Origin: Diphasiastrum complanatum
Lineage: Eukaryota; Streptophyta; Lycopodiopsida; Lycopodiales; Lycopodiaceae
Direction of reading: 5' to 3'
Length of the DNA stretch: 64,000 nt
Assembly: GCA_029204225.1 (NCBI GenBank)
Contig: CM055103.1
Location: 20,834,709-20,898,708, forward strand
Each line of letters starts with the position of its first letter. The stretch's first letter is position 1. The notes below the pieces were generated by a model. The model did no database searches. It saw nothing but the letters and a program-made list of their open reading frames with translations, and had not been told where the DNA came from. The position numbers were made by a program, and so were the translations under genes. Positions 2,830-62,704 of the stretch are shown here, piece after piece.

Positions 2830-3490
2830 AAGGCGTAGGAAAAAACTAGAGGAAAAATGAAGAGCAATGGCGTGCAAACCGTTAAAAACTAACAACTTAA
2901 GCTCAAATGTCCAAGAAAATGGGCTAAAATAAGCTTTGGGAGCTAAAACAAGCAACTTAGGAAAATGGGTGAAGGAATGAGAACATACACTCCTTTACCC
3001 CCTTCCCCCAAGCTCCTCCCCTTCCTCCATGCAAAAAGGACAAGTGGGGCCCTAGAAAGGCCCCATTTGTATCTTCTAGAATCTCTCTACCATGTGGACT
3101 ACAAAAGGGTGCCACATGGCCCATGGACTTCAAATGGATATCAAAATTAACTAAAGCCCCTCTCTCACCTCCCTTCCCCTACGCACCACAACTCCTCTCC
3201 AAAGCTTTGGAGATTTGCAGGTGCAGAGAAGAGAGGAGAGGCTATAAGATCACAAGGACACACCTGCCTGTGACACGTGATGGCAGCAAATTATGTCGAT
3301 AACGCCAGGACCTCCGTCATGCCCCTTGCGAGGCCGAAGGGCGCACCGTTATGGTACATAACACTCTTCCATTATCTTTTCATTTAATTCTTGTCTTAAG
3401 AGTTTTCTTTGAAGGTCTTCATCTTTTCCTCTTTGGAAAGGAGCCTAGTCAACCATCCTTTCTCGACTATACTTTGCAACCACTTCTCAT
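2830..3490. other. Probable leader of the gag relic; no gene
   Basis: This lies upstream (minus strand) of the gag relic. I see no coding frame worth naming. It is probably the element's leader, but I could not place an LTR edge or a primer site. Confidence 0.3.
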
Positions 3491-8467: not shown

Positions 8468-9068
8468 TGTAGTGGTTTTTTTTCCTGGCCTATCCTCAAC
8501 CCAAGATCTAAGCAATCTAGCATCAAGGAGATGAAGTTGGTTGTCACGCGTAGGTTCGTTCCCATGAGAGCGATAGCATATCTCAGAATTCGGCATAAAT
8601 GGAAGATCCACATCTAACTCTAACATCCATTAACCCTAAGCATTAACACTATGTCCACAATGAAGATAGCTTACTCTTTCTCTCTCTCTCCCTTTCTCTC
8701 TCACAAAGCATATGAAATAACAATTCCCATAACAATCAGATCAACAATTAGCAAATGCAATAAAAACATGAGAGACGGAGGAAAAGTCATAGAGAGCAAG
8801 GACATTCACAAATCCATTCCATAAGAGAACCAATCTGCATGTATTGAAATGAGGATATGAACATCCGGGAGCAACTCGAGTTTACCCCTATTTCTAGTGG
8901 AGAGGAGGACCTTAGCCTCATTAGGGCCCTTTTTGGACTCAAAGGGCCTCTTCGCTAATTATAATTAGTGTTAATGACAACACGTGTCCCAATAAAATAT
9001 TGACAACTGAGAGGGAATGGTCTAGATGCAGATTAAATCAAGTGTGGGCCCACAGTACACCTCTAACA
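8468..9068 (-). repeat. Gypsy 5' LTR
   Basis: On the minus strand it starts TGTTAGAGGTGTACTG and ends CACTACA, about 600 bp, and is followed at once by the decayed primer site. Orientation and position fit the gag relic at 6.6-7.2 kb. No second copy was found, so the start is less certain than the end. Confidence 0.5.
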
Positions 9069-10412: not shown

Positions 10413-10683
10413 TGGGACCCGCTCTAGACGTGGAGACGAATCAGCAAGAAGTGGAGATATCCATACATTTGCCCCATGATGAAATACAAGAAATTCATAT
10501 CAATAAGGTTTGCAGCCTAGAAAATCTTCGGCATTTAGTATCTGATTTCAGTACTGTTTATGTGAATGCAGTGATTTGAAAATTTAAGTAACATCTATGT
10601 GAATGCAGTGATTTAAAATTTTCAGTACTATGGGAATGGTAGTCTCTTTAGGCATGTTGTAGCTAAGATAGGTTTCCTTGCAT

Positions 10684-10771
10684 TGGCATGAAAATCATGC
10701 CAAGGCGCGACGAGGGCCCTTTTGACCAGGTCAAATAGCCCTGGTCGCGCCCTGGCGTGATTTTCATGCCA
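10684..10771. mobile_element. 88-bp foldback (hairpin) element
   Basis: Left arm TGGCATGAAAATCATGCCA, continuing to ggcgcgacgaggg, is mirrored by a right arm ending in TTTTCATGCCA. The arms are about 34 bp with about three mismatches, around a short loop. It has no coding capacity and no clear target duplication. It could be a MITE or, less likely, a small-RNA hairpin. Confidence 0.7.
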
Positions 10772-10869
10772 TAGAAAAGACAAAAGAAATTTTTATCAGA
10801 GAAAAAAAAATTAAATTCTAAATTCAAAGAATAAGCACATCATATAATCACAATAGATAATTAGGAGAG

Positions 10870-12254
10870 TCCACAAGAAAAAAACGACAAAATCTTTATT
10901 CACATTCGGTCCATTTCCTTCAAAGAGGACTTCAGCTAGTACTGGATTTAACATTTCTAATGCTAATTTAGGAGCATCACTCTCATTCTCATAAGGGCCA
11001 ATTAAACCCGAGAGAATGAGCCGGGTCTCGAATCTAGGGCAGAAATCATTCAAAACGGCTTTTCAGAGGACACAGTAAGGCTTTGGTGCTAACGGTGACA
11101 ACTCCACCTCACCAATGTCCTTGGAGAGTGCTTTGCATTTAAGAAGCTCCGTCGGTCTATCTGGACTATACTTGTTGCTGAAGTAGAAAATAAAGTTGTT
11201 GGGCAAGTTCCCAATGTAGTGGGCCATAGACCTGTCCAGAGTTCCTGCTTCAACTTTCTCCCGAATGCCACCCCTTCACATAGCAAATGCATCAAGCTCC
11301 ACTGCGTCCTGTATTTGGTTTAAATTATTGTAAAATGAGTATAATGAAGACAAACAAACATAACAAAAATACACAAGTTGAATTGTTGGGTCAAACTTGC
11401 CTCGGTCCCTTCATCAATGTCTTCGGTTTGCACAAGCTGAATTCCTTTGCCTTTGTACTTCATGTCAGCAGTTTTCCCTTCGAGTACCTCGAATGGCCTT
11501 GTTTGAGCGTTTTCAATTGGCAAAGCACTCTTGCCAGTGCTTGCTCGGTGGTGTCCGTGTCATGGCCGATCAACTTCACATACGTGTCGTCGGGCTGGGT
11601 CTGGTCGAAAGTGGAACTGCCATTCTGCAAATTTACCAATGCTGCCAGCATCTCATCTTCTCGCAAGCCGAGAATATGTTGCAAGTCATGCATGAACACA
11701 TACTCTTGCCCATCAATGATGATTGGAGCAAGGCCATGGATTCGAAGCATGACATCATCGGACTCATCTATATCTTTTGGCTCTGCTGATGTGGATGCAC
11801 CTGTTGCCTCTTGCGTAGCCAAGACTACTTCGTGCTCCGCATATAAATCTTCCTCTTCACCCGGGTCATGCATCTCGTTCACTTGCTCACTAGGATTGTG
11901 TTCGTTGCGGGCCATAGTCGTTGGAAATTCATTAAGCAAAAAAATAACAATAATCTCACCGGATAGAAACTTCCTTCCCACACTTTCAAGATCAAAAGTT
12001 TTCAGCTGATCCTTTGTTAGCTCCAAGTAATGATCGTTACCCAAGTGACTAATAAATCTGTTGAGACGAGCGATAAAGGGTCTATCTCCTTTCCATATAT
12101 AACTAAGCAAGTTATATGGAATCCACATGATAGTTGAGCCAGGAATTCGTATGGCATAAGGCTTCAAAGTTTCATCTATATACTCACTCACATACGTGAA
12201 TGCATCTGTATTAGCCCGTAGAGTGGCAAGCGTGTCTATTCTACCGGTGAACAT
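10870..12254 (-). pseudogene. Uncharacterised gene beside the RAG1-like relic
   Basis: The frame opens at 12,254 (MFTGRIDTLATLRANTD). It runs about 240 codons through 'MWIPYNLLSYIWKGDRPFI' and an acidic linker, to 'GQEYVFMHDLQHILGLRED'. Near 11,530 the coding frame shifts and continues as 'PIENAQTRPFEVLEGKT'. A 92-bp intron with an unusual GC donor (GAG|GCAAGT, 11,401/11,400) and a 'tacag' acceptor (exon resumes at 11,308) joins it to 'DAVELDAFAM', a TGA, 'REKVEAGTLDRSMAHYIGN', a second TGA near 11,060, and 'LILSGLIGPYENESDAP'. I do not recognise the family. With two stops and a shift it is inactive. It starts about 330 bp downstream of the transposase 3' half on the same strand, so the two may have been neighbours in one element. 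Confidence 0.45.
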
Positions 12255-12587
12255 ACAATAAATACAATCTAACTGATCTAAAAACTATGTGGGGGCTAGC
12301 AAATTGGCCAACTCTATTTTAGAGGACGACATTGTGATACAACAAAGAACACTAATTTACCAACAAACTAGTAGTTTAATTGAACAAGACAAGCTAAAAT
12401 AAGAGGAAAGAAATTTCAACAAAACAAGAAGTGACAACAAAATGAAAACCCCCACTCTTATATAGAAGGACGTGTTTCCAAAAATAGATATTAAAACAAA
12501 GCAATTTCTATTTATAACAACAATCCAATTTGTCAGTAATATTTATCACAAAGGAATATTCGAATTAAAATCCAACATAAATTGCTT

Positions 12588-13659
12588 CTATTCCATCTCA
12601 TCAGTTTCCGTAGCTTCTCTAGTGTTGTTTTTCAAAACATTGGATGTTGGTGTCCTCGACATCCATCTCTTTCCAACTCGGACTCTAGACATCCTCCATT
12701 CTTGATGCCTTGTTTTAGCATTAGAGGATTGCCATGCCGTTTTTCTAACTGAATTTGAATTGGAGATCATTGAACTCAACTCTTCAGTTCTTGTATTTTG
12801 AAAGTGTCCTCGGCCCAAAACTCCTCTGTAAAACCATTGGAATATCTCAACCAATGCATTACTAAGACCCTTTCCTCCGCCATGGCGTGAATTCTTGAAA
12901 TATGCAGCCTTTGCCCTGTAATGACTCTTTTCCATGCCTTGCATATTCCAGATAGCTAATGATCCATAGGTTTTCATAAACCAAGGTCCATGAGCATAGA
13001 AGATGTGCTGTTCATAGAAAATATGTATTAGTTTAAATCTTGATAAATACATAAATACGAAAGTGAAAAATATGAGACACACATACCATATAGTGAGTTA
13101 TGTGTGTTTCTCCCCATGCATTGATCATCAATTCAGTAAATGTTTTGACTTCTCTTGCGTATCTATCCAAATCTTCATCTCTCACAATATTTTTGTTGAT
13201 AGTTTGTGACAAGGCATCAAATGATTGCCAAACCTTAGCACGTGTACTTGCCATGCGAGGATTTGAGCCAATATTTGTTGTGCATTGACATATTTTCTTC
13301 CAGTACTCCCATTCAACACTGCTTTCACGTGCAGTATGATTTGACAATAAGTGTCTTGCTTTTGCACTACCCGGTTGAAACTTTTGCTGGACCATCTTGC
13401 GTTTTTCCACTCATCTCAATGTCTTTGATAAGACTCACGTGACCCCCATGCAATCCCATATCGGATAAAATTATCTCTAGATTTCTAATGCTAACATCTG
13501 CTCTTGATTTGGGCTGCATGTTCCATGCGTAACAACAATGCAAAAATAATAATTTGTCCAGTATTTGTAATTCACCATGCATTGTGCAAAAATGGACTCT
13601 TTCAAGAGGAATGTTTAACACAGGACTCCAAGCTTTGTCTAGATTGTGCCTATTTGGTG
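12588..13659 (-). pseudogene. RAG1/Transib-like transposase, 3' half
   Basis: Coding starts directly at the edge of an LTR-like repeat (13,659) with 'RHNLDKAWSPVLNIPLERVH' and 'FCTMHGELQILDKLL'. A one-base frameshift near 13,385 leads into 'GSAKARHLLSNHTARE' and 'KVWQSFDALSQTI'. A phase-0 intron (13,008-13,086, ATG|GTATGT to gaacag|CAC) joins 'WGETHITHYM' to 'HIFYAHGPWFMKTYGSLAIW' and then 'NMQGMEKSHYRAKA'. The frame ends at 12,588 after a basic tail. The spliced H-x4-H pair, with a glutamate exactly 20 residues after the second histidine, matches the spacing of the zinc histidines and the catalytic glutamate of RAG1 (H937, H942, E962 in mouse; established knowledge). The 5' half lies on the other strand at 19.1-20.24 kb. 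Confidence 0.6.
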
Positions 13660-14240
13660 TCATGTGCCAACCTTAGCATTCAAACATCTAATCCATTTAT
13701 TAAATATCAAATTACAATGGAAATGCAAAAAATCAAGAAACTAGTCAAAAATCAAGAAGAAAGCTAAAAGTAGCAAAACTTCACCAAATTTGATAAAATA
13801 AGGTATCTTTATTCATGATTATTGGTCATTCACAAGATAGGGCCTGATTCTAGAGCATGATCATAGCTCTCATGTGATTTTAGACACATGAACCACTTTC
13901 TCCATCAAGAAAGCTCTCCAAGAGAAGCTCCAAGATCTCTTAAAACTCAAAATTACAAAATGAACAATAGCCTAGCACGACCTCAGCTATTTATAGTGGT
14001 CATGATTATTGATCATTCACAAGATAGGGCCTGATTCTAGAGCATGATCATAGCTCTCATGTGATTTTAGGCACATGAACCACTTTCTCCATCAAGAAAG
14101 CTCTCCAAGAGAAGCTCCAAGATCTCTTAAAATTCAAAATCACAAAATGAACAATAGCCTCCAAATTTAGCACGACCTCAGCTATTTATAGTGGTCATTT
14201 GTGCCTCTACTATAATTTGAGGCCTTATTTGTCATGAAAT
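13660..14240 (-). repeat. LTR-like repeat, minus copy with internal duplication
   Basis: In minus orientation it ends ...GGCACATGACA at 13,660, right against the transposase 3' half, and matches the plus-strand LTR at 20,380-20,783. A TATA-like 'ctataaatagc' and 'gaatgatcaataatcatgaa' are shared. About 190 bp is tandemly duplicated (13,810-13,980 and 13,985-14,190). The 5' edge (near 14,240) loses similarity to the other copy just before the expected LTR start, which suggests a breakpoint. Confidence 0.65.
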
Positions 14241-15060
14241 GGATGAGAAATAAGTTGTATACGAGGTCAAGTGAAAAAGCTAAAAGTTGAGAGAGAATTA
14301 GTGGGATTCATTTTTCTACATATTTGAAAGTCTGAGATGGTCCAACATTGTATGGCAAAGTGGCAATATATCTTCAAATTGGAGATATGTAGATTTATGA
14401 TATATGAGTACTCAACTCTTGTAAATTACAATGCTTGCTTTTCTTTGTCTTACTCATTTTAGATAAGCAAATAAGGACCATATACAATTGAATAATCCTA
14501 GAGCTAAGTGAGGATAAAGGCACTAGATGATACAGAAAGAGAAGAAAAATTGAAAGGGAAAATTACTGAGTATCGTGTGCACATGAAAAGTGCATATTTA
14601 GAAATCATAACATTTAGCAAGCATATCAATCTTATCTTTTGCCATTAGATCGATGGGGAAGATTGAAAACAGTGTGCAAAAGAAAGAAGGATAATCGATT
14701 TTTATGGTTTGCCATCTATGGAAGTAATTTTTCAGTTTGAAATGATTCCAGTCCATAAAAGATCTAAGCTTGCAAATATGTAGACCATCAACATAGAACA
14801 GATTCTAAAGTATAGTGATCTCCCAAAAACGGAATTACTGTCAGCTCATCACGCCAAACGAGTATTCTCAATAGAAAGAAGGTGCTCTCACTGTTGTGTG
14901 CGAAATTAGATCTAAATTTTCAGAAATGCGTAAGAATGAAGGGTATTGATTATTGCTAGTATTAGCAATGAGCATGCATCCAAAGTGAAAGTAATCATTG
15001 GTTTGTCTCTCACTTACATTGTTGTCAGTTAATGGGTCCGCATATAATTTCCCTCGTCAT
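14240..15060. other. 3' flank of the MATE gene, no gene seen
   Basis: A/T-rich sequence without coding frames of note. It separates the MATE stop codon from the LTR-like repeat. It presumably contains the MATE 3' UTR, but I cannot place a polyadenylation site with confidence. Confidence 0.4.
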
Positions 15061-16629
15061 TTAACAGACAGGGATCTCCTCCTTGTGACAATCACTTGAT
15101 TGAATGGGCAGCTTTTTGCTTGCAGACGAGTCGATCCGTCCCATTGCCTTCATGGCTTGCTTGTCCCAATCGATGAACAGTGTGATCAGGAAAAGAGTAA
15201 CAGTCTTGATTGCCATCCCCACAATCATTCCTATCCACAGCCCCAAGTCGTTGTATTTGAAGACGAAGGCTAATATGATTGAGCACGGCAATCCCACAAT
15301 GTAAAACGACCCCAGGTTCGTGTACGCTCCAAGATCTTGCCAGCCACATCCCCTCGACACGCCTGAAATAACACCTTGGATGGCATCCATGAATACAAGT
15401 GCGACAAGGAAAGGCATACATTGGTAGACGTACTCGACAACCTTGGCATCGTTTGTGAAGGCCCAGCCATCAACTTTGCGCAGTACTGACATTAGCAAAG
15501 TTGCCATCAAAGCACCTTCCAATACAGCCATTACGACGTTAACTGTCACCGCAAACTTCGCGGCTTGTGGGTGGCCAGCTCCAAGCTCATTCGACACACG
15601 AGTACTGACGGCAGCACTGAGGCTAAATGGCACCATGTACATGAATATCAAATTCGTGAGACAGATGGTGAAGGTAGATGTTTGCAGCTGAGGGTCTGGC
15701 AACAGTCCTGAGAGAATGACAAGTACTTGGAATGACCAAATCTCCAAGCATAGCATGACTGCGGAGGGGATAGCCAGCTTGAAGAAACTTCCGAGGTCAT
15801 TATAAGCCTCCCTTGAAAAGGATGTCCAAGTCTTTTTGCACCGGGGTGAAAATTTCACATAGGCAGCCAGGAGCGCAACAGTCAGCCAATTTGAAATGCC
15901 GAGGGAAAGGGCTGCTCCGCGAAATCCCATGCCCAACTTGAAGATGACAAGCCAACAGAGGAGGATATGGAAAGGTAACGTGGTCAGTGATATCACTGCC
16001 ATCGGCAACACGACACTCTGTGTCTGCAAGAACTTCAACAAGGGTTGAAGAGAGGCATATGCAAATATGGTTGGAATCAGCCACCGGGCGTACTCCCCCG
16101 CTGCAACTGAAATCTCAGGGTCCTGCCCAACAGCCTTGAGTAGATTACCCATGTTCCACCACAAAACAGCGATAGGTAGGCTTGTAAGGTACAAAACCAA
16201 GATGGCACGTTGAAGGAAAATACCCAGCATGCGATACTGCTTGGCTCCGTAAGCCTGCCCGCACAAAGTCTCCAATGCGGAAGCCATTCCCATGAAAAGG
16301 CTTGTGCCCGTAACACTTGCGATGGAGTTGGCCAGGGAGGCACTGGAAAGCGCGAGTGCACCCAAGTGCCCAACAAACATGATCGACACTACAGTCAGTG
16401 AATACCAAAGCAAATTCACACAGATCATTGGGAAGGCAATCCTTAGCTGCGTCCCAATCTCTTCCCTTAACCGATTTTCTGTGCGTAAGTTCAACGTTGT
16501 ATCGTATTTCCCAGCTCCACAGTTGAATCCTCCATCCCCAGCGTGCGGATTTGTGGTGGATTTGGATGGCTCCTCTCTGTTTATCAAGGGCTCTCCCAAA
16601 CTACAGCCCTGATAGGCCATCGCTCCCAC
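15061..16629 (-). CDS. MATE-family transporter (DETOXIFICATION-like), intronless
   Basis: A single uninterrupted frame of 522 codons encodes a complete plant MATE efflux carrier. Such proteins exchange protons for organic cations, flavonoids, alkaloids or xenobiotics at the plasma membrane or tonoplast; the substrate cannot be read from sequence. A hydrophilic N-terminus of about 60 residues is followed by about 12 hydrophobic segments in two six-helix halves. Family motifs are clear: 'MFVGHLGALALSSASLANS' in helix 2, 'ETLCGQAYGAKQYRMLGIF' before helix 4, 'STRVSNELGAGHP' at the start of the second half, and 'QGVISGVSRGCGWQDLGAY'. Start choice: M1 at 16,629 gives MGAMAYQGC; M4 is an equally possible start. 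It most resembles the ALF5/DTX1-19 clade, whose members usually have several introns, so a retrocopy origin is possible. No disabling change is seen. Confidence 0.95.
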   Translation of the reverse strand: MGAMAYQGCSLGEPLINREEPSKSTTNPHAGDGGFNCGAGKYDTTLNLRTENRLREEIGTQLRIAFPMICVNLLWYSLTVVSIMFVGHLGALALSSASLANSIASVTGTSLFMGMASALETLCGQAYGAKQYRMLGIFLQRAILVLYLTSLPIAVLWWNMGNLLKAVGQDPEISVAAGEYARWLIPTIFAYASLQPLLKFLQTQSVVLPMAVISLTTLPFHILLCWLVIFKLGMGFRGAALSLGISNWLTVALLAAYVKFSPRCKKTWTSFSREAYNDLGSFFKLAIPSAVMLCLEIWSFQVLVILSGLLPDPQLQTSTFTICLTNLIFMYMVPFSLSAAVSTRVSNELGAGHPQAAKFAVTVNVVMAVLEGALMATLLMSVLRKVDGWAFTNDAKVVEYVYQCMPFLVALVFMDAIQGVISGVSRGCGWQDLGAYTNLGSFYIVGLPCSIILAFVFKYNDLGLWIGMIVGMAIKTVTLFLITLFIDWDKQAMKAMGRIDSSASKKLPIQSSDCHKEEIPVC

Positions 16630-17490
16630 TCACCTCTCCTCTTTCTTCTCTTTTGCTGCAAAGTTCAAACTGGCAAATTGCAATCACAACGCTGCTCTTT
16701 CTCTTCTACCTTCGGTAATCCCTCCACTTATCATTATATGTATTGATTGCTACCCACCAACAGTGACAAATGATATCATTCATTCATTCATTGTGAATTT
16801 GGAGATCCTCCTAAATCATAATGAAGCACGATAGTTATATATATCAGGTGGAGATGGAATTATAATGAATCACGATAGTAATTATATCAGGTGGAAATGG
16901 AATGATGAGAGAGCTGAAGCTGATGGCCATGGGCCATGGCCCTATATTTGGGGGACCTGGAGGCTGGCCTAGCCCCTTGTCCCCTGGGCCCTGGATCTTC
17001 TGGAATCTGTAGCCCTGGCCGCTCTTCCCCTCTTTGGAAAGCCACCAAAAGTATAAGAATGGAATATGTAAAGTATATTTCATAAAATACTGTTGACTTT
17101 TGAAGAGACGACAACCTTTTTTAAATGCAAATTTTTCGTTTCTCATTTTTATATGGATAATTGAAGACTTCAGAGATTGCTGTAAATGAAGTAGAACTTA
17201 GGCTACATTATAGAGTTAATACAATAAATTTTTAATTTAGATTTTTAGTATTGGCAAAATATCTAAGATGCAAGATTTAAAAGGCAAAAATTTTCAAAAT
17301 CAACAAGCTTTTCTATTTGCAGGTTTCCAACAATGCCCAGCCCCCAGCCCTAGGATGCTTTAGTACACAAATATGTGAGTACACGGCAATGGGCATGCAA
17401 GGACGGACTTGGTTTTGGAGCCAATTTGACAGCAGGCCTTCGCCTTCTAAGCTCATCAAATCAATCATCATCCCCTGAATAAGTACTTAT
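16630..17490. other. Upstream region of the MATE gene, with a short tandem repeat
   Basis: This is the 5' flank and probable promoter/5' UTR of the MATE gene on the minus strand. A two-unit tandem repeat (16,818-16,861 and 16,862-16,904, 'ataatgaaKcacgatagt...atcaggtggaRatggaat') lies about 190-275 bp upstream of the start codon. I cannot assign a specific TATA box or factor site. No other gene is seen up to 17,490. Confidence 0.4.
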
Positions 17491-17496
17491 GTAGTA

Positions 17497-17620
17497 GGTA
17501 ATGGCCATTGAGAGGGCCATTACCATAAATAATCTGGAACCCGGCAGCGAGTGGCGGAGGCCACGAGCTGTCCAGGGACCGGATTATTTGTGGTAATGGT
17601 CCAACCAATGGACCATTACC
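17497..17620. mobile_element. 124-bp MITE whose terminal repeats are themselves hairpins
   Basis: Left arm (17,497-17,541) and right arm (17,576-17,620) are inverted repeats of each other: GGTAATGGYC...GGNCCATTACC, then aYaaataatcYgg. Each arm also folds on itself (GGTAATGGCC/GGCCATTACC with perfect 10-bp arms; GGTAATGGTCC/GGACCATTACC with perfect 11-bp arms). The centre is a GC-rich 'gcagcgagtggcggaggcc'. A truncated inverted copy sits at 6454-6530. Confidence 0.65.
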
Positions 17621-17625
17621 TCACG

Positions 17626-17654
17626 TAATTGCCTTTCGGCTGATTTTTTTGATG

Positions 17655-17688
<34 letters not shown>

Positions 17689-17690
17689 GT
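17626..17690. mobile_element. Partial TIR element with CT array
   Basis: 'taattgcctttcggctgatt' matches the TIR of the 6039-6448 element with one change, and it is again followed by a T-run and (CT)n (17,657-17,685). The other end is missing. Confidence 0.5.
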
Positions 17691-17988
17691 GCGCTGTTGT
17701 TGGAGGGTTTGCGGATCCTGAGGCAACCCTAACCCTAGTTAATAAGTGAGAGGGATTTGGCACCCTGCGTGTGTAAGTCCAACCTGATGATCAAATAGTG
17801 ATTTGATAATTAGAAAGTCAATAAAAGGACTTTAGGTCTTTTTGCGGGACTTTTAATGTCGTAGGCTAAAATGTCAAGTTAGTGAATAAAGTTGGGACTC
17901 CCACCAAAATTGATTCAAATTCAAATTCAAATTGGTTCCCTCCAATTTTGAATGATTCCCACTCTTTTTTAAATTTGAATAGCTAGGA

Positions 17989-18200
17989 AGGTAGAAATGC
18001 TTCTTGGTTTCCAAGGGGAGGTTCGAACCTGGGACCAAAGAAACTTTGGATGCCAAGCTAACCAGTTGAGCCAACCCCGTTGGGTGCAAGGTAGAAATGC
18101 TTCTTGGTTTCCAAGGGAAGGCTCGAACTTGAGACCAAAGAAACTTTGGATGTCAAGCTAACCAATTGAGCCAACCCCGTTGGGTGGAAGGTAGAAATGG
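17989..18200 (-). repeat. Tandemly duplicated tRNA-derived SINE
   Basis: On the minus strand each unit contains a pol III A box in GGTTGGCTCAACTGGTTAGC, then a B box GGTTCGAACC about 35 bases on (second copy decayed, AGTTCGAGCC). The units are 100 bp (17,989-18,088 and 18,089-18,188), and a third begins at 18,189. Acceptor-stem pairing is poor, so this is not a working tRNA gene. A tRNA-derived SINE head is the best reading. Confidence 0.6.
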
Positions 18201-18540
18201 ACCAATAGGACTCAAAAAGGGCCTCTTCTTTGCCTAAACAAGTTTTCTAATCATAATTAATTTAGTGCTAATCAATCCTATGTGGCACCTTTACATTGGG
18301 TTACCATACAAGGTGAGCAAGAGTTAAGGCCTAAATGTAGGTCTCATTTTCATAGACTATTGTAGGTTATTTGCATAGACTATAATAGGCAACTAATAGG
18401 TAAGTTACAAATTACAACTAAATTAGGGTTAGTATAGGACGACCTTTCATTGTCCTCACTACAATAAGACCCTAGGGATGGAAACTAGTATATGCTAATA
18501 AAGCTTATATCATGGTTAGTTCACATTGAACTTTGACACC
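18200..18540. other. Intergenic; possible element end
   Basis: No coding frame. 'cactacaataagacc' at about 18,458 resembles the CACTA-type terminal motif of plant DNA transposons and lies just upstream of the split transposase 5' half. No matching inverted end was found, so I give it little weight. Confidence 0.25.
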
Positions 18541-18542
18541 AT

Positions 18543-19079
18543 TTGATTAAGGTATATTGTAAAGTTCTACATAGATTATTTTGGGAAATTCGACATCTTC
18601 AAGATGACAACCAAGTATCAGTTACATGTGAAGTTAGAGAAGGATTATGCAACCACCAAAGCTGCATGGGTGTTAACTTAAATCCGTATGAGATGTATTG
18701 TTGGAGATTAAAAGACAAAAAACATATTGAGCTATGGGTAAGAGGTGATTTATACCCTCATAATCCATTGGTAGATGCTCCTCCTAAATTTTCTGATGTA
18801 CATAGTTTGTTAAGGTTCGTTGAGGATAGTCGGAATGGACTGCTTGGCTATTGTCAAGCAATGGATTCTCGAAGATTCCAAGCTGAGACATTGGCAAATA
18901 CGGCAAACATTCATATCTTGAGTATTAATGACAATTTAAAGTCATTGCATGAAAAAAATATGAAATTGGAGCAGGAGATAAATGGTTTGAAAATAGAGCT
19001 CGCCAGTTCTGTCGCAAAAATTGAAGTATTGCAATCTTCAATCAGTATATTTCAAAGGACAATATATGGCTTACAATGA
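18543..19079 (+). CDS. Uncharacterised ORF with coiled coil, upstream of the RAG1-like 5' half
   Basis: An open frame of 178 codons from MIKVYCKVLHRLFWEI to 'ISIFQRTIYGLQ'. The first part has several Cys and Trp residues ('GLCNHQSCMGVNLNPYEMYC', 'LKDKKHIELWVRGDLYPH'). The second half is a heptad-like helical region ('NDNLKSLHEKNMKLEQEING'). I do not recognise a family. It ends 16 bp before the next candidate start (ATG 19,095) on the same strand, so it is either a separate small protein of the same element or the N-terminal part of the transposase cut off by a stop. Confidence 0.45.
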   Translation: MIKVYCKVLHRLFWEIRHLQDDNQVSVTCEVREGLCNHQSCMGVNLNPYEMYCWRLKDKKHIELWVRGDLYPHNPLVDAPPKFSDVHSLLRFVEDSRNGLLGYCQAMDSRRFQAETLANTANIHILSINDNLKSLHEKNMKLEQEINGLKIELASSVAKIEVLQSSISIFQRTIYGLQ

Positions 19080-19094
19080 AAGCATAGAGTCTCG

Positions 19095-20242
19095 ATGGAT
19101 CAGCAAGCACAAAATGAAAACACTAAGAGACACAAACTAGAAGCTTTGGCACCAGGTGGTGGTGCCAGTAAAAGATGTATGAGGGACACATAAGAGTTCT
19201 TGCAAAAGACGGTTGGAAAAGATTTTATTTATGGAAAATATATGAAACATTTTTCTAAGGGTAAAGATTTGATTAAGATTGTGGAAGATGAAACAATTGA
19301 TTCAATTCGCTTGAGAATTGCAAAAAAGCTAGTCGACAAGTTCAAGCCAAATCCAAATGTTAAAGAGATGGTGTACGCATGTGACCAAGGAGGTGTGAGG
19401 GTATAGAGCTTCAAAGAAATATATGAAACGCTCTGACAGAAATGGGTTAAAACGCCATCAAATAATACCTACTTATAAACTTGTTGAATCCGCCAAACGA
19501 GAATACAATTCGATTTTGCTCTCTGAATTAGGAGAGTTTCAGCATATTGAGAATTCTTTTACAGTAACCAATAAGAAGAAAGGACCTCCGACATGTTTTC
19601 ATTATCATCAAGACAACAATATATTCTTAGATCTGGAAAAGGTCCAAGCGATGATGATCCGACATTACGAAGTTGAAACAAACGGTAAGAACATTTATTG
19701 TGGATTTTGATTTTCATTTGTATGCTTTTCTTCAACTAATATATTTTCGTAATGAAATTTTTTGTTTTACAGATTGCGGAGGTAAAGTTATATCTGTTAT
19801 TAAGTTGGACGAAGCAGAAATTGTAAAAGGGCGTAAACTTGAATGTGTCACAATCACCTTGATGAATCGTGAATTGCAACAGTTTGGCGGAAGTTATTGT
19901 AAAGAATTTAGCGTGCAATTCGAAAATCACATATGGTGGATAGCTGCATTTGAAGTTCCTAAGGAGTCTCACGACGTACTGGAGTGGCTATTTGAAAAAT
20001 GTAGTATATCTAAAATTATACATGCACAAAATGAAGGCAAATTGTTCAATGTTGAAGGAGAAAGCTTTGCTGTAGAATGGCACCTAGCTGCTGATTTGAA
20101 GACCTTGAAATGCATGTACGGTTGTGGTCTCGGTGCAAATGCAAAGAATCTTTGTATATATTGTATGTTTGAATCTGGACGGAACAAAAGTATTTTGAAT
20201 TGCAACCAACGTCTTGCACCAAATGTCATGTGCTGCATGTAA
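19095..20242 (+). pseudogene. RAG1/Transib-like transposase, 5' half
   Basis: The frame starts at ATG 19,095 (MDQQAQNENTKRHKLEAL), has a TAA at about 19,190 and runs in frame to 19,406 ('LRIAKKLVDKFKPNPNVKEM'). It then shifts to 'SKKYMKRSDRNGLKRHQ' and 'IIPTYKLVESAKREY'. A clean 88-bp phase-1 intron (19,685-19,772, G|GTAAG to ttttacag|AT) joins it to 'DCGGKVISVIKLDEAEIVKG' and 'KLECVTITLMNRELQ'. Further on come 'IWWIAAFEVPKESHDVLEW', 'VEWHLAADLK' and 'ANAKNLCIYCMFESGRNK'. In RAG1/Transib proteins the corresponding parts are a Ser-Tyr-rich '(P)SY...AK' segment, the first catalytic Asp, an acidic second strand and a CxxC zinc pair followed by Arg. The first Asp (KLDEAE) and CIYC fit; the second catalytic acid is unclear. 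It ends about 135 bp before an LTR. Confidence 0.6.
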
Positions 20243-20379
20243 TTAGCCCATGAGCTTACTAATGAATTGCCAAATATGGCCATGGAGCTAAAGTAGACTA
20301 GAATTAGTCATTAGGACAGTTAATAAGGTGGCTCGAACAACCCCGCTATATTTGTGAATAGCGAACTTGTAATAATGGT

Positions 20380-20783
20380 TGTAAGGCCCAAATTAGCCAA
20401 ATAAGGTCCCAAACTTATAGTAGAGGCACAAATGACCACTATAAATAGCTGAGGTCATGCCAAATTTGGAGGCTATTGTTCATTTTGTAATTTTGAGTTT
20501 TAAGAGATCTTGGAGCTTCTTGGAGAGCTTTCTTGATGGAGAAAGTGGTTCATGTGCCTAAAATCACATGAGAGCTATGATCATGCTCTAGAATCAGGCC
20601 CTATCTTGTGAATGATCAATAATCATGAATAAAGATACCTTACTTTGCCTATTTTGGTGAAGTTTTGCTACTTTTAGCTATCTTCTTGATTTTTGACTAG
20701 TTTCTTGATTTATTGCATTTCCATTGTAATTTGATGTTTAATGAATGGATTAGATGTTTGAATGCTAAGGTTGGCACATGACA
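20380..20783 (+). repeat. LTR (plus copy)
   Basis: It starts TGTAAGGCCCAAATTAGCC and ends GGCACATGACA, with a TATA-like 'ctataaatagc' about 55 bp in. A primer site follows at once. It is the inverted relative of the repeat at 13,660-14,240, and it follows the transposase 5' half directly. Confidence 0.65.
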
Positions 20784-43399: not shown

Positions 43400-44650
43400 T
43401 ATGCCAAAAAACAACCTTTTTATGAAAAAAATTGAAGTAGTGCAACTGATAAAAATACATTTGATACTCTAGAAGTCGAGCTTCTTCCTGAGATCGTGAG
43501 GAATCTGCGCAAAAGCAGTACATCCAAAAACTTGTAAGTTTGATAAAGGAGGTTTGGTACCTGTCCAAACTTCGAATGGTGTTTTGTCTGAGAGACCTTT
43601 AGTAGGACATTTGTTCTGAATATAGGTTGTTGTTGAAATAGCTTGAGCTCAGAAGGACTTCGAAAGTGTCGCATGTGATAACATGCACTTTGCCAATTCA
43701 ACTAAGGTTCTGTTCTTTCTCTCAGCAAGACCATTTGACTGAGGGGAATAGGAAGTAATGTGTTGTTGCTCAATGCCGTTGTTAAGGTAGTACTCCTTGA
43801 ATTCGGTGGAGATGTATTCTCCCCTGTTATTTGACTTCAGTGCTTTGATTCGTTTACCATTTTGATTATTAGCATGCTCTTTGAATTGTCTAAATTTGAT
43901 GAAAGCCTTTGATTAAACAACTGTTCTTCTGGAAAATTTGTCAATAAAGGTAATGAAATACTTTGCATCTAGCAATGATGGAGTTTGCATAGGTCCACAT
44001 CTATCTATATGAACAACATCTAACAGACCTTTTGTTGTATGTCTATGACTTGATCTAAAAGGAATCCTAGTCTACTTTTTTCAAAGATGCAGCTATGACA
44101 GACAGGGAGATCGACCTTACCAAAAGGATAGTCGAAATCAAGAACCATGGATTGTCTGGACATGTTCAAAATAGATGCATAATTCAAGTGTCCTAAGCGA
44201 TGATGCCATAGTAATGGTTTATTGACAAGAACAGAGGTTTTCAAGACTTGACTAGACTCAGAATAACAATGTGCCAATCTATATAAGTAACCTTGCCTCT
44301 TGCCGAGTGCAAGGATCTTATTACTCCTATCAATAATTCTGCATTGATCAGACTCAAACTCTACCCTATGACCTAAATCTGTAGTTCTACTTACTGATAA
44401 CATATTTGTAGAGAGTTTAGGAGCATACAAGACTTTTGACAGTAGTTTGAATTGATCTTGCTGGAATCTCAATCTTACAGTACCTTCACCTTCGATAGTG
44501 TGAGTACTATCATCACCAAGATGAGCATACTTCTTTGTGTTGTAAGACGTATAGGATTGGAAAATCTCACGATGATTGGTCATATGTTGAATAGCTCCAG
44601 AATCCAAAAATCACGAATCATCCGAATTCGTGTACTTGTCTGTTGTGTCG
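43400..44650 (-). pseudogene. Copia protease-integrase relic
   Basis: In order on the minus strand: 'SWFLDSGAIQHMTNHREIF' (protease, active-site DSG), 'LLSKVLYAPKLSTNMLSVSR', the integrase zinc region 'WHHRLGHLNYASI...CHSCIFEK', then, with frameshifts, 'SPQSNGLAERKNRTLVELAK' (third catalytic residue) and 'KTPFEVWTGTKPPLSNLQVF'. The frames shift at about 44,030, 43,900 and 43,640. There is no RT beyond 43,400. At 44,655 it abuts an LTR-like repeat that ends ...CTATGCTACA. Confidence 0.85.
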
Positions 44651-60278: not shown

Positions 60279-61358
60279 ATGACTTCAATGGGTGTCTTTC
60301 TATTAGAAGCAAGTGAAAGATTGCCAACCTCCAATTACTCAATTTGGAAGGTTAGAATGGAATCTGGCTTAATACTACAAGATGTGATGGATATTGTACT
60401 TGGCTTCCTCAAGAAATTCCAAAGTACAAAAAGAGAGCTAGGATGGCTCTGCATTATATAAAGATGAATGTCTCAAATGACATCTTAAGAGAAATTGGTG
60501 CTTGTACTAATGCCAAAGATGCTTGGGATACTCTCAAGTCCATCTATGAGGCAAAGAATACTTCTAGACTTCTAACACTAAGAAACCAGTGTACAGAGAA
60601 GTGATGAATGTGCTTCAGCTTATGTAATGAGAGTTAAAGACCTCCATAGAGAATTGTCATGCATAGGAGACTCCATCAACCAAAATGAACTCGTTCAAGT
60701 CATACTTAATGGGTTAAAGGAAGAATATGACAACCTTGTTCAAAGTTATGCCATTAAGGAGGAGCTACCAAGTTTGGAAGCACTCCAAAGTGTGCTCATT
60801 TCTGAAGAATCAAGAGAAGAGTATAAACTCTTGAAAATGGAGAGACTGTCTCTCAACATTGATGATAAAGCTCTCTTTACCAAAGACAAGCACAAGACAA
60901 GCAGTAAGAATCAACACCAATCCTCTTCAAGCAAGAACAATCTTATTTCCAAGGAGAAAGGAGAAGAGGATGAGTCCTCTCAAGATTCCACATCCAAGAA
61001 GAAGAAGAAAAACATAAAGTGTTTCTTTTGTGGCAAGAAGGGGCATTATGCCACCAATTGCTTCAAGAAGAAGAGTCAATTCAAGCAAGCCAACATTTCT
61101 AATGAAGAGAAGGAAGATGCTCATGCAAGTGATGGAGAGGGATCTCTTATGGTCTCGAGTTTTTCTTCATCACCTTTCAAGAAGGATGGTTCGTGGTATA
61201 TCGACAGTGGAGCTTCCTCACATATGTGTAGCTCCAAGCATTCTTTTTCATCCATGTCACCTTATGAAGGAGCCAAGAAGTCCATCTACACAGCACCTCT
61301 CAATCTCCATGTCAGAGGCATCCTAGATTCTCAAGATGCTCTTAGTGAAGCCAAATAA
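60279..61358 (+). pseudogene. Copia gag and protease
   Basis: Gag starts MTSMGVFLLEASERLPTSNY at 60,279. It shifts frame near 60,400 ('RARMALHYIKMNVSNDILRE') and again near 60,600, then runs open to 61,358. It has 'LSCIGDSINQNELVQVILNG', a Ser/Lys-rich linker and the zinc knuckle CFFCGKKGHYATNC (CX2CX4HX4C, about 61,019-61,060). The protease active site is 'WYIDSGASSHMC'. It is nearly intact, with about three indels, and follows the copia LTR/primer site interrupted by the LARD. Confidence 0.85.
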
Positions 61359-62704
61359 ATTTTGAGTGTGCTATTGAAGGCATAGGGACCATTCCCTTAA
61401 AGCTTTCTTCATCAAAAGTTCTTTCTCTGTCTAGAGTACTTTTTGTTCCTAAGTTAACAAAAAATCTTATTACTGTTGGGCAATTGTTTGATAGTGGACT
61501 AGATGTGAATCTCAATGTTGACACATGTACAATCAAGAAGCATGATGAGATCCTTGCTGGGTCTAGATATGGTGGAATCTACAAGCTTGATCCCAAAGAG
61601 TATGCTAACTCTTGTGATGGTGCTTTTGCTTCTCATATTTCTTTGGAGGAACTTTGGCATAGAAGGTTGGGACATCCTAACTATAGTTTTATGGTGTCCA
61701 TGGTCAAGAAAGCCAAAGCTATTGGCTTTCCTAATCTTATCTCCAAGAATTTCAAGCCATGTGAGGCTTGTGCCATATCTAAGTCTCATAAGAAGCCTTT
61801 TTCAAAGTCATCTATCAAGACTACACATCCATTGGAGCTCGTACACTCGGATGTGCACTTCTCATCTTCAAAGAGCAAGGGTGATGCTACTTGCTTTGTA
61901 ACTTTCATTGATGATTTCACAAGATTTACTTGGTTATATCTTCTAGCTTCAAAGTCTATGGTGTTTGACTATTTCCTAAAGTTCAAAGCTCGAGTTGAAA
62001 AGCAATTTTCATACAAAATCAAGATTCTTAGAAGTGATGGAGGTGGTGAGTACACGTCCAATAAATTTCATGATTATTCTGAGCTTGAAGACATTAAAAG
62101 GAAGTTTTCTTGTGCATATACACCATCTCAAAATGGGGTGGCTGAAAGAAAGAATAGAACACTGTGTGAATGTGCCAAAGCCATTAGAATTGAGGCATCC
62201 TTGCCAAAAGACTTTTGGGGTGAGGCTATCAATTGTTCAAACTATCTTTGCAATAGACTCCCTCATGTTGCACTTGGAGGAAAGTCACCATATGAAGCAC
62301 TCTATTTGAAGAAACCTAAGGTTGAAGACCTTAGAGTATTCGGATGCATATGCTTTGTCCATATTCCCTTGGAAACGAGAAAGAAGGATGATCCTTGTGC
62401 AAGCAAAGGAGTAATGGTTGGATATTCATCCAACAAGAAAGCCTATCGAATCTACATGCTCTCTACTTCTAAAGTAATTGATAGTAGAGATGTAGTTTTT
62501 CATGAAGAAGAAAAGTCCAATCTTGGAGGGGCCGAGATCAAGCAACCTCAAAATCTATCACCTTTTGTTATTGAGGACAATCAACATGTGGAGGAGTCGA
62601 GATTTGAAGATGGAAGTCCTCAGATTTTCACTCCTAGAAGATCCATGAGGGAGAGATCCACCACTATCCATCTCTATTCCATCTTCTATCTCCATCTTTG
62701 TTAG
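61359..62704 (+). pseudogene. Copia integrase
   Basis: After a frame change 'SRVLFVPKLTKNLITVGQLF' leads into an open frame to 62,704. The zinc domain is 'WHRRLGHPNYSF...CEACAIS'. The DDE core is visible as 'ELVHSDVHF', 'KILRSDGGGEYTSNKF' and 'NGVAERKNRT'. The C-terminal part has 'VFGCICFVHIPLETRKK' and 'VIDSRDVVFHEEE'. All three catalytic residues are present. The frame ends where RT should start, and no RT, RNase H or 3' LTR follows, so the element is truncated at about 62.7 kb. Confidence 0.9.

Follow-up and report, generated by a model that had tools for sequence, protein, structure and literature searches.

The window analysed here is a 64,000-nucleotide stretch of the Diphasiastrum complanatum genome (contig CM055103.1 of assembly GCA_029204225.1, positions 20,834,709 to 20,898,708). 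In its interval 12588..20242 it holds a transposase relic, probably a single decayed copy of a multi-gene plant DNA transposon that is present in high copy number and encodes both a sister of the RAG1/Transib transposases and a histone H3. The gene content of this element, the linkage of its genes and the long conservation of its histone were observed in the present analysis. RAG1 is the enzyme that shuffles antibody genes, and vertebrate adaptive immunity goes back to its relatives. Coordinates of the relic follow the numbering of the window and, for residues on the minus strand, denote the high base of the codon.

A first-pass annotation of the window had described a clean 79-bp intron in the 3' half of the relic and, beyond it, an H-x4-H pair followed 20 residues after the second His by a Glu, in the spacing and context of RAG1. 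Both were borne out. The intron (minus strand, 13086-13008) is exactly 79 bp long and has GT...AG borders, splicing across it gives ...GETHITHYM / HIFYAHGPWFMKTYGSLAIWNMQGMEKSH..., and translation places the first His at 13007, the second at 12992 and the Glu at 12932, 20 residues after the second His. With phmmer, the stretch containing these residues aligned gap-free to mouse RAG1. The 5' half, on the plus strand, does contain an Asp in VIKLDEAE (19808) and a CIYC motif (20153), as had been claimed. The second catalytic acid, which had been called unclear, was found to be Asp 20093 in HLAADLKTLKC, 20 residues before the CxxC (19 in RAG1). The same half also contains IIPTYKLVESAK, put forward in the annotation as a candidate Transib-like motif. 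The layout is accordingly D, D, E with the CxxC between the second Asp (D2) and the Glu and with H-x4-H before the Glu. In copy L034 of the element the distances are 95 residues from D1 to D2, 20 from D2 to the Cys, 5 from His to His, 20 from His to Glu and 257 from D2 to Glu, versus 108, 19 (D708 to C727), 5, 20 and 254 in mouse RAG1. The contexts GS-x3-W-x3-G-x-E and IT-x-Y-x-H-x4-H-x-P are common to both proteins.

The joined transposase protein had 17 homologues (E values from 7.4e-102 to 7.5e-57). A profile search gave 35, including these 17, none of them with an annotated Pfam domain, and ten homologues scanned against Pfam showed no match above the curated cut-off. In an alignment of 18 rows, many of them partial, D1 was conserved in 14/14 of the covering rows, D2 in 17/17 and the CxxC in 16/17. 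Most rows stop at the conserved intron after HYM; the next exon was present in six homologues (P0011, P0021, P0027, P0033, P0034 and P0035), all six with H-x4-H and the Glu. A search of the genome with the transposase gave at least 216 matches (the best 150 of 10071 first-look candidates were scored), and a scan of viral contigs gave 18 pattern matches, none of them a relative. A chance motif match in junk DNA might be suspected from the shortness of the motif and from sequence profiles that were not significant (see below). This possibility is negligible, being ruled out by the strong homologues and the copies in the genome; in addition, the ratio of nonsynonymous to synonymous substitution rates (dN/dS) of the transposase was 0.15-0.34 between two families of the element.

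For the reconstruction of the element, eight copies and four extensions were fetched. Copy L031 is complete (8262 bp), with perfect 37-bp terminal inverted repeats (TIRs; 3262-3298 and 11487-11523 in L031), and L034 (8742 bp) has both ends. The transposase gene, in three exons, is followed by open reading frame 2 (ORF2) on the same strand, while gene 3 and the histone gene run convergently from the other end. The TIR is CATTAGGG, with the variants GATTAGGG in L034 and CATTAGAG in L045 and L057. It is nearly palindromic (GGCCCTTTTTG-GACT-CAAAAAGGGCC); a hairpin might fold at either end of the element. Its start is not of the CAC... type of Transib or of the heptamer of the recombination signal sequence (RSS), which is CACWRTG. 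Of 25 distinct 3' flanks (of 30; L046-L084), 10 had TA two bases past the end of the element, and 3 of 17 distinct 5' flanks had it at the mirrored place; this perhaps reflects an insertion preference without visible duplication. One copy (L037/L041, C1:3514200-3530100) contains a run of N in its 3' part. Pfam searches with ORF2 and gene 3 gave no confident family and detected no RAG2 domain. The middle exon of gene 3 shows 67% amino acid identity between families, with a dN/dS of about 0.2, and a weak PB1-like match (E = 0.12). ORF2, which is under similar constraint, could be a functional partner of the transposase.

Two partial models, from the fold prediction that the annotation had proposed as a check, showed a core like that of RAG1/Transib, and the first matched RAG1 over 390 residues. 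In a phmmer search of the PDB, the six sequences found up to an E value of 10 were all RAG1 (0.72-0.95). Several results weigh against the kinship with RAG1. The profile comparison advised in the annotation gave no significant match, neither with the Pfam RAG1 family (E = 0.044; 12.3 bits for a cut-off of 25) nor with hhalign against the single mouse RAG1 sequence (E = 0.12), and profile A1, which lacks exon 3, did not find RAG1 in the PDB. The mean pLDDT (predicted local distance difference test) of the partial models was 68.3 and 70.4, with the Glu in a low-confidence stretch. None of the 12 end pairs (L031 and L034 read end to end, the other 10 joined by coordinates and orientation) had an abutting target-site duplication (TSD) of 3 bp or more, though one pair shares 5 bp located one base from each end and a further pair has 4 bp in common, at offsets 2 and 0. 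Thus, of the annotation's proposal of a RAG1/Transib-like plant member or sister, the fold and catalytic layout stood, while membership was not upheld by the profiles, the TIR or the TSD. The data support the transposase as a divergent sister group of RAG1/Transib at the level of predicted fold and catalytic layout. Alternatively, it may belong to another CMC/Chapaev-like DDE family and resemble RAG1 in the common CxxC/H4H core alone. A similar arrangement of D...CxxC and HxxxH...E is present in CACTA-type transposases, the TIR and TSD of the element are not Transib-like, and no CMC transposase structure is among the matches listed. We consider this unlikely in view of the two sequence contexts shared with RAG1 and of the 390-residue match of the first model. 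It may even be compatible with a sister position to RAG1/Transib, as Chapaev is placed in the Transib superfamily in the paper that defines the superfamily (Kapitonov and Koonin 2015, PMC4411706).

In full-length copies the second convergent gene encodes a protein of about 400 residues with a C-terminal histone H3 fold and a tail start like that of H3. The C-terminal piece from L034 (103 residues) matched PF00125 with 93.1 bits (cut-off 26.4; E = 1.9e-26) and aligned gap-free to plant H3.1 (9e-24), the nearest family being H3. About 300 SR/Q/P-rich residues lie upstream of the fold, beginning with (MSEE)MARTKQTAR. CENH3, in which loop 1 is longer than in H3, was rejected as an identity because the alignment to H3.1 is gap-free, with no loop-1 gap. 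Seven of the 8 fetched copies of the main family have the fold. Genome-wide, all 150 histone places scored (the best 150 of 5613 candidates) matched, with 76-100% identity; the match was free of stops in 113 and contained a stop in 37. The lists of transposase and histone places both hold the best 150 of more candidates, and 61 of the 150 listed histone places have one of the 150 listed transposase places no more than 8 kb away (0.2 expected by chance). Fifty-eight of these 61 are on the strand opposite to the transposase, and they lie at a median of 2.6 kb downstream. The number of places in the genome, this linkage and the second family described below rule out a one-off capture of the histone in a few copies. 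We read 14 tails, from L031-L034, L037, L043 and 8 of 20 further stretches fetched; the other 12 were dropped, 11 having no tail and one a chance match in another protein. K9 was absent from all 14, residue 9 being D in 11 and V, N and R once each. K4 was kept in 13, and 6 had the exact MARTKQTAR. In five tails R2 was replaced by W, as CpG decay would give.

A second family, represented by L043, is 72.8% identical in DNA to the main family over 3.8 kb. Transposase, ORF2, gene 3, histone fold and histone tail (MARTKQTARRNPRETALLH) all recur in L043, in the position and on the strand that they have in the main family; the histone fold of L043 contains one stop and a frame break. Between the families, dN/dS was 0.30-0.34, 0.19-0.23 and 0.15-0.17 for transposase exons 1, 2 and 3, 0.14-0.21 for ORF2 and 0.19-0.21 for gene 3. 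For the histone, the proportions of nonsynonymous (pN) and synonymous (pS) differences were 0.19-0.21 and 0.82-0.85, and dS is therefore saturated. Within the main family the ratios were mostly higher (0.25-0.82 for 4 histone pairs), which is expected of decaying copies. In a tree of 25 rows, made with 20 of the 24 H3 matches and with one plant H3 fragment, the histones of the element formed one clade with a long stem (100/100).

These data bear on the possibility that the histone is a passively captured fragment of a host gene, spread by transduplication and of no use to the element, which is what has been suggested for hAT elements of fungi. The high within-family dN/dS, like that of decaying copies, and the stop in 37 of 150 places would agree with this, and there are precedents for hAT elements with H3 in Pyrenophora (PMC3538342) and in Pseudocercospora and relatives (PMC6710886). 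In the same sources, however, the H3L copies of Pyrenophora are almost identical to one another and those of Pseudocercospora have been inactivated by repeat-induced point mutation (RIP), whereas here the histone occupies the same place and strand in two families with a DNA identity of about 73%, with a pN of 0.2 at saturated pS, a conserved tail start, residues foreign to H3 that are common to both families, and a single clade. Passive capture is thus distinctly unlikely. Selection probably maintains the histone for some task in the life of the element, and it is from its conservation that we infer that it serves the element. The points that speak against this are the following. L032 has the tail but no fold, and tails were found in only 8 of the 20 further stretches. 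The histone pS is higher than the values for the remaining genes compared between the two families (0.49-0.70), which may be due to base composition or to a different history. In the tree the bootstrap had not converged, and L043 falls among the main-family copies (96/72) and not beside them. In L044, a second divergent copy, the similarity ends inside ORF2, and the fetched 7.9 kb contained no histone. The linkage of histone and transposase comes from one genome only, and no contig common to the 24 H3 matches and the transposase matches was recognised by its length.

As to mechanism, the transposase, with its DDE site and its zinc site of two Cys and two His (C2H2), would cut the element out at the 37-bp TIRs, and the excised element would be pasted elsewhere, as the fold and catalytic layout suggest. 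The histone of the element might enter the nucleosomes on element DNA, or compete for them with host H3; devoid of K9, it would weaken the silencing of the element by H3K9 methylation, the R2/K4 end of the tail being meanwhile retained. Tentatively, we favour this anti-silencing job through competition with host H3; a role in target choice or in the recruitment of chaperones is just as possible. More doubtful is the full picture, in which the transposon provides nucleosomes of its own, with a selected H3 variant that would be unmethylatable at K9, would make element chromatin resistant to silencing and would still engage readers of the H3 tail through its R2/K4 end; RAG2, a reader of that H3 end, would be its mirror image. 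It is also possible that the histone aids transposition directly, through donor or target chromatin or as a handle for H3 chaperones or tail readers, and not through escape from silencing, a suggestion that is again tentative. RAG2 reads H3K4me3, and the retention of K4 and of the exact tail start would suit such a role, as would the same conservation. The histone gene is also convergent to the transposase gene, an arrangement that RAG2L and RAG1L show in ProtoRAG (PMC9435367). Yet the absence of K9 from every tail fits anti-silencing at least as well. With K9 lost and K4 kept, the element offers a direct test of whether a transposon escapes heterochromatin by supplying its own histone.

In the window, both transposase halves adjoin the end of a long terminal repeat (LTR) with an identical 5 bp, CCAAA, and L031 is uninterrupted across the same point; the two halves are therefore one copy, hit by an LTR element. 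The LTR duplication common to both halves rules out two unrelated relics. The halves were separated later, in opposite orientation, and a host MATE gene now lies between them. The interval 12588..20242 thus also contains this gene and LTR pieces, and the element continues to 8919. The relic transposase is frameshifted between about 13367 and 13410, and the histone H3 gene was lost with an internal deletion of about 1.46 kb (L031 8439-9898). The features are as follows.

8919..8953, minus strand: 3' TIR, CATTAGGGCCCTTTTTGGACTCAAAGGGCCTCTTC read on the plus strand; 35 bp, 2 short of the 37-bp repeat of L031
9421..9666, plus strand: first exon of gene 3 (MASTQSRK...), convergent to the transposase, one internal stop; tblastn, 85% to L034
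9957..10540, plus strand: gene 3, middle exon, interrupted by one stop and one change of frame, no confident Pfam family
10534..10539, no strand: junction of the internal deletion, about 1.46 kb including the histone H3 gene missing
10811..11275, minus strand: second part of ORF2, broken
11463..12284, minus strand: first part of ORF2, 274 residues here versus 364 open in L034, no Pfam family
12590..13007, minus strand: transposase exon 3, with His 13007, His 12992 and the putative catalytic Glu 12932
13008..13086, minus strand: transposase intron, 79 bp, where most homologous proteins stop
13087..13657, minus strand: 3' part of transposase exon 2, frameshift at about 13367-13410, CCAAA duplication at 13653-13657
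13658..14255, minus strand: LTR belonging to the gene-splitting retroelement; its end reads ...CATGACA and its far border is approximate
15064..16629, minus strand: host MATE (DETOXIFICATION-type) gene, single open frame, outside the element; 5y50 DETOXIFICATION 14, E = 6.7e-131
18208..20223, plus strand: 5' part of the element, outermost 16 bp or so of the 5' TIR lost
18604..19684, plus strand: transposase exon 1, N-terminal, coiled-coil-like, frame broken in places
19685..19772, plus strand: transposase intron 1, 88 bp
19773..20223, plus strand: 5' part of transposase exon 2, with Asp 19808, Asp 20093 and CxxC 20153; CCAAA at 20219-20223
20224..20783, plus strand: second LTR of this retroelement (TGTCATG ... 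CATGACA), with borders placed by reading the sequence

A tandem duplicate of about 115 bp (ggtagaaatgcttcttggtttccaagg..., 17979-18207), spotted by eye, adjoins the truncated 5' end of the element, and an inverted repeat (48 nt, 81%, loop of 10 nt) lies inside the element at 10675-10780. Elsewhere in the window, long open reading frames at 60582-62701 and 44023-44610 may be pieces of Copia gag/pol, which they resemble.

The statement in the first-pass annotation that RAG1/Transib-type transposases are described mainly from animals is partly outdated, since Tao (2022, PMC9435367) reported potential Transib-like proteins in plants and a pelagophyte RAGL whose element has 5-bp TSDs and a CACACCC... 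TIR; the TIR of AanRAGL starts with CACACCC (PMC9435367). A 5-bp TSD is a mark of Transib (PMC9435367, PMC4411706). Unlike RAG1, ProtoRAG (BbRAGL) and RAGL, the plant element has no Pfam-detected RAG2 domain, its known partner being an H3-like histone, and it has introns, its own TIR and no abutting TSD seen. It differs from Transib by the lack of a Transib-like TIR and of an abutting TSD (0/12), by its several genes and by the absence of a significant sequence match. A divergent sister family with many copies in a plant broadens the phylogeny available for testing how RAG arose. The histone resembles plant H3.1 in its fold, its first eight tail residues and its gap-free alignment, but differs from H3.1 and CENH3 by the SR/Q/P-rich tail of about 300 residues, the lack of K9 and its position in a clade of its own.

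The closest parallels in H3 carriage are hAT elements of fungi, as described for Pyrenophora tritici-repentis (H3L; Manning 2013, PMC3538342) and for Pseudocercospora fijiensis and five further genomes (Dhillon 2019, PMC6710886). These too are DNA transposons with a many-copy H3-like gene, and the fungal H3L also has tail insertions. Their transposase is however of the hAT type, whereas the present element is from a plant, has a RAG1-like transposase and carries an H3 that lacks K9 and is conserved between diverged families. The fungal cases looked like accidents; if our interpretation is true, the conservation of H3 between diverged families would be the first sign, among the cases found, that carrying a histone pays a transposon. 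Among the open-access titles and starts of abstracts listed (most subscription journals lying outside), we found no RAG1/Transib-type element and no plant element with a histone. The present element joins a probable RAG1/Transib-sister transposase with the carriage of H3, a rare habit known from fungal hAT elements.

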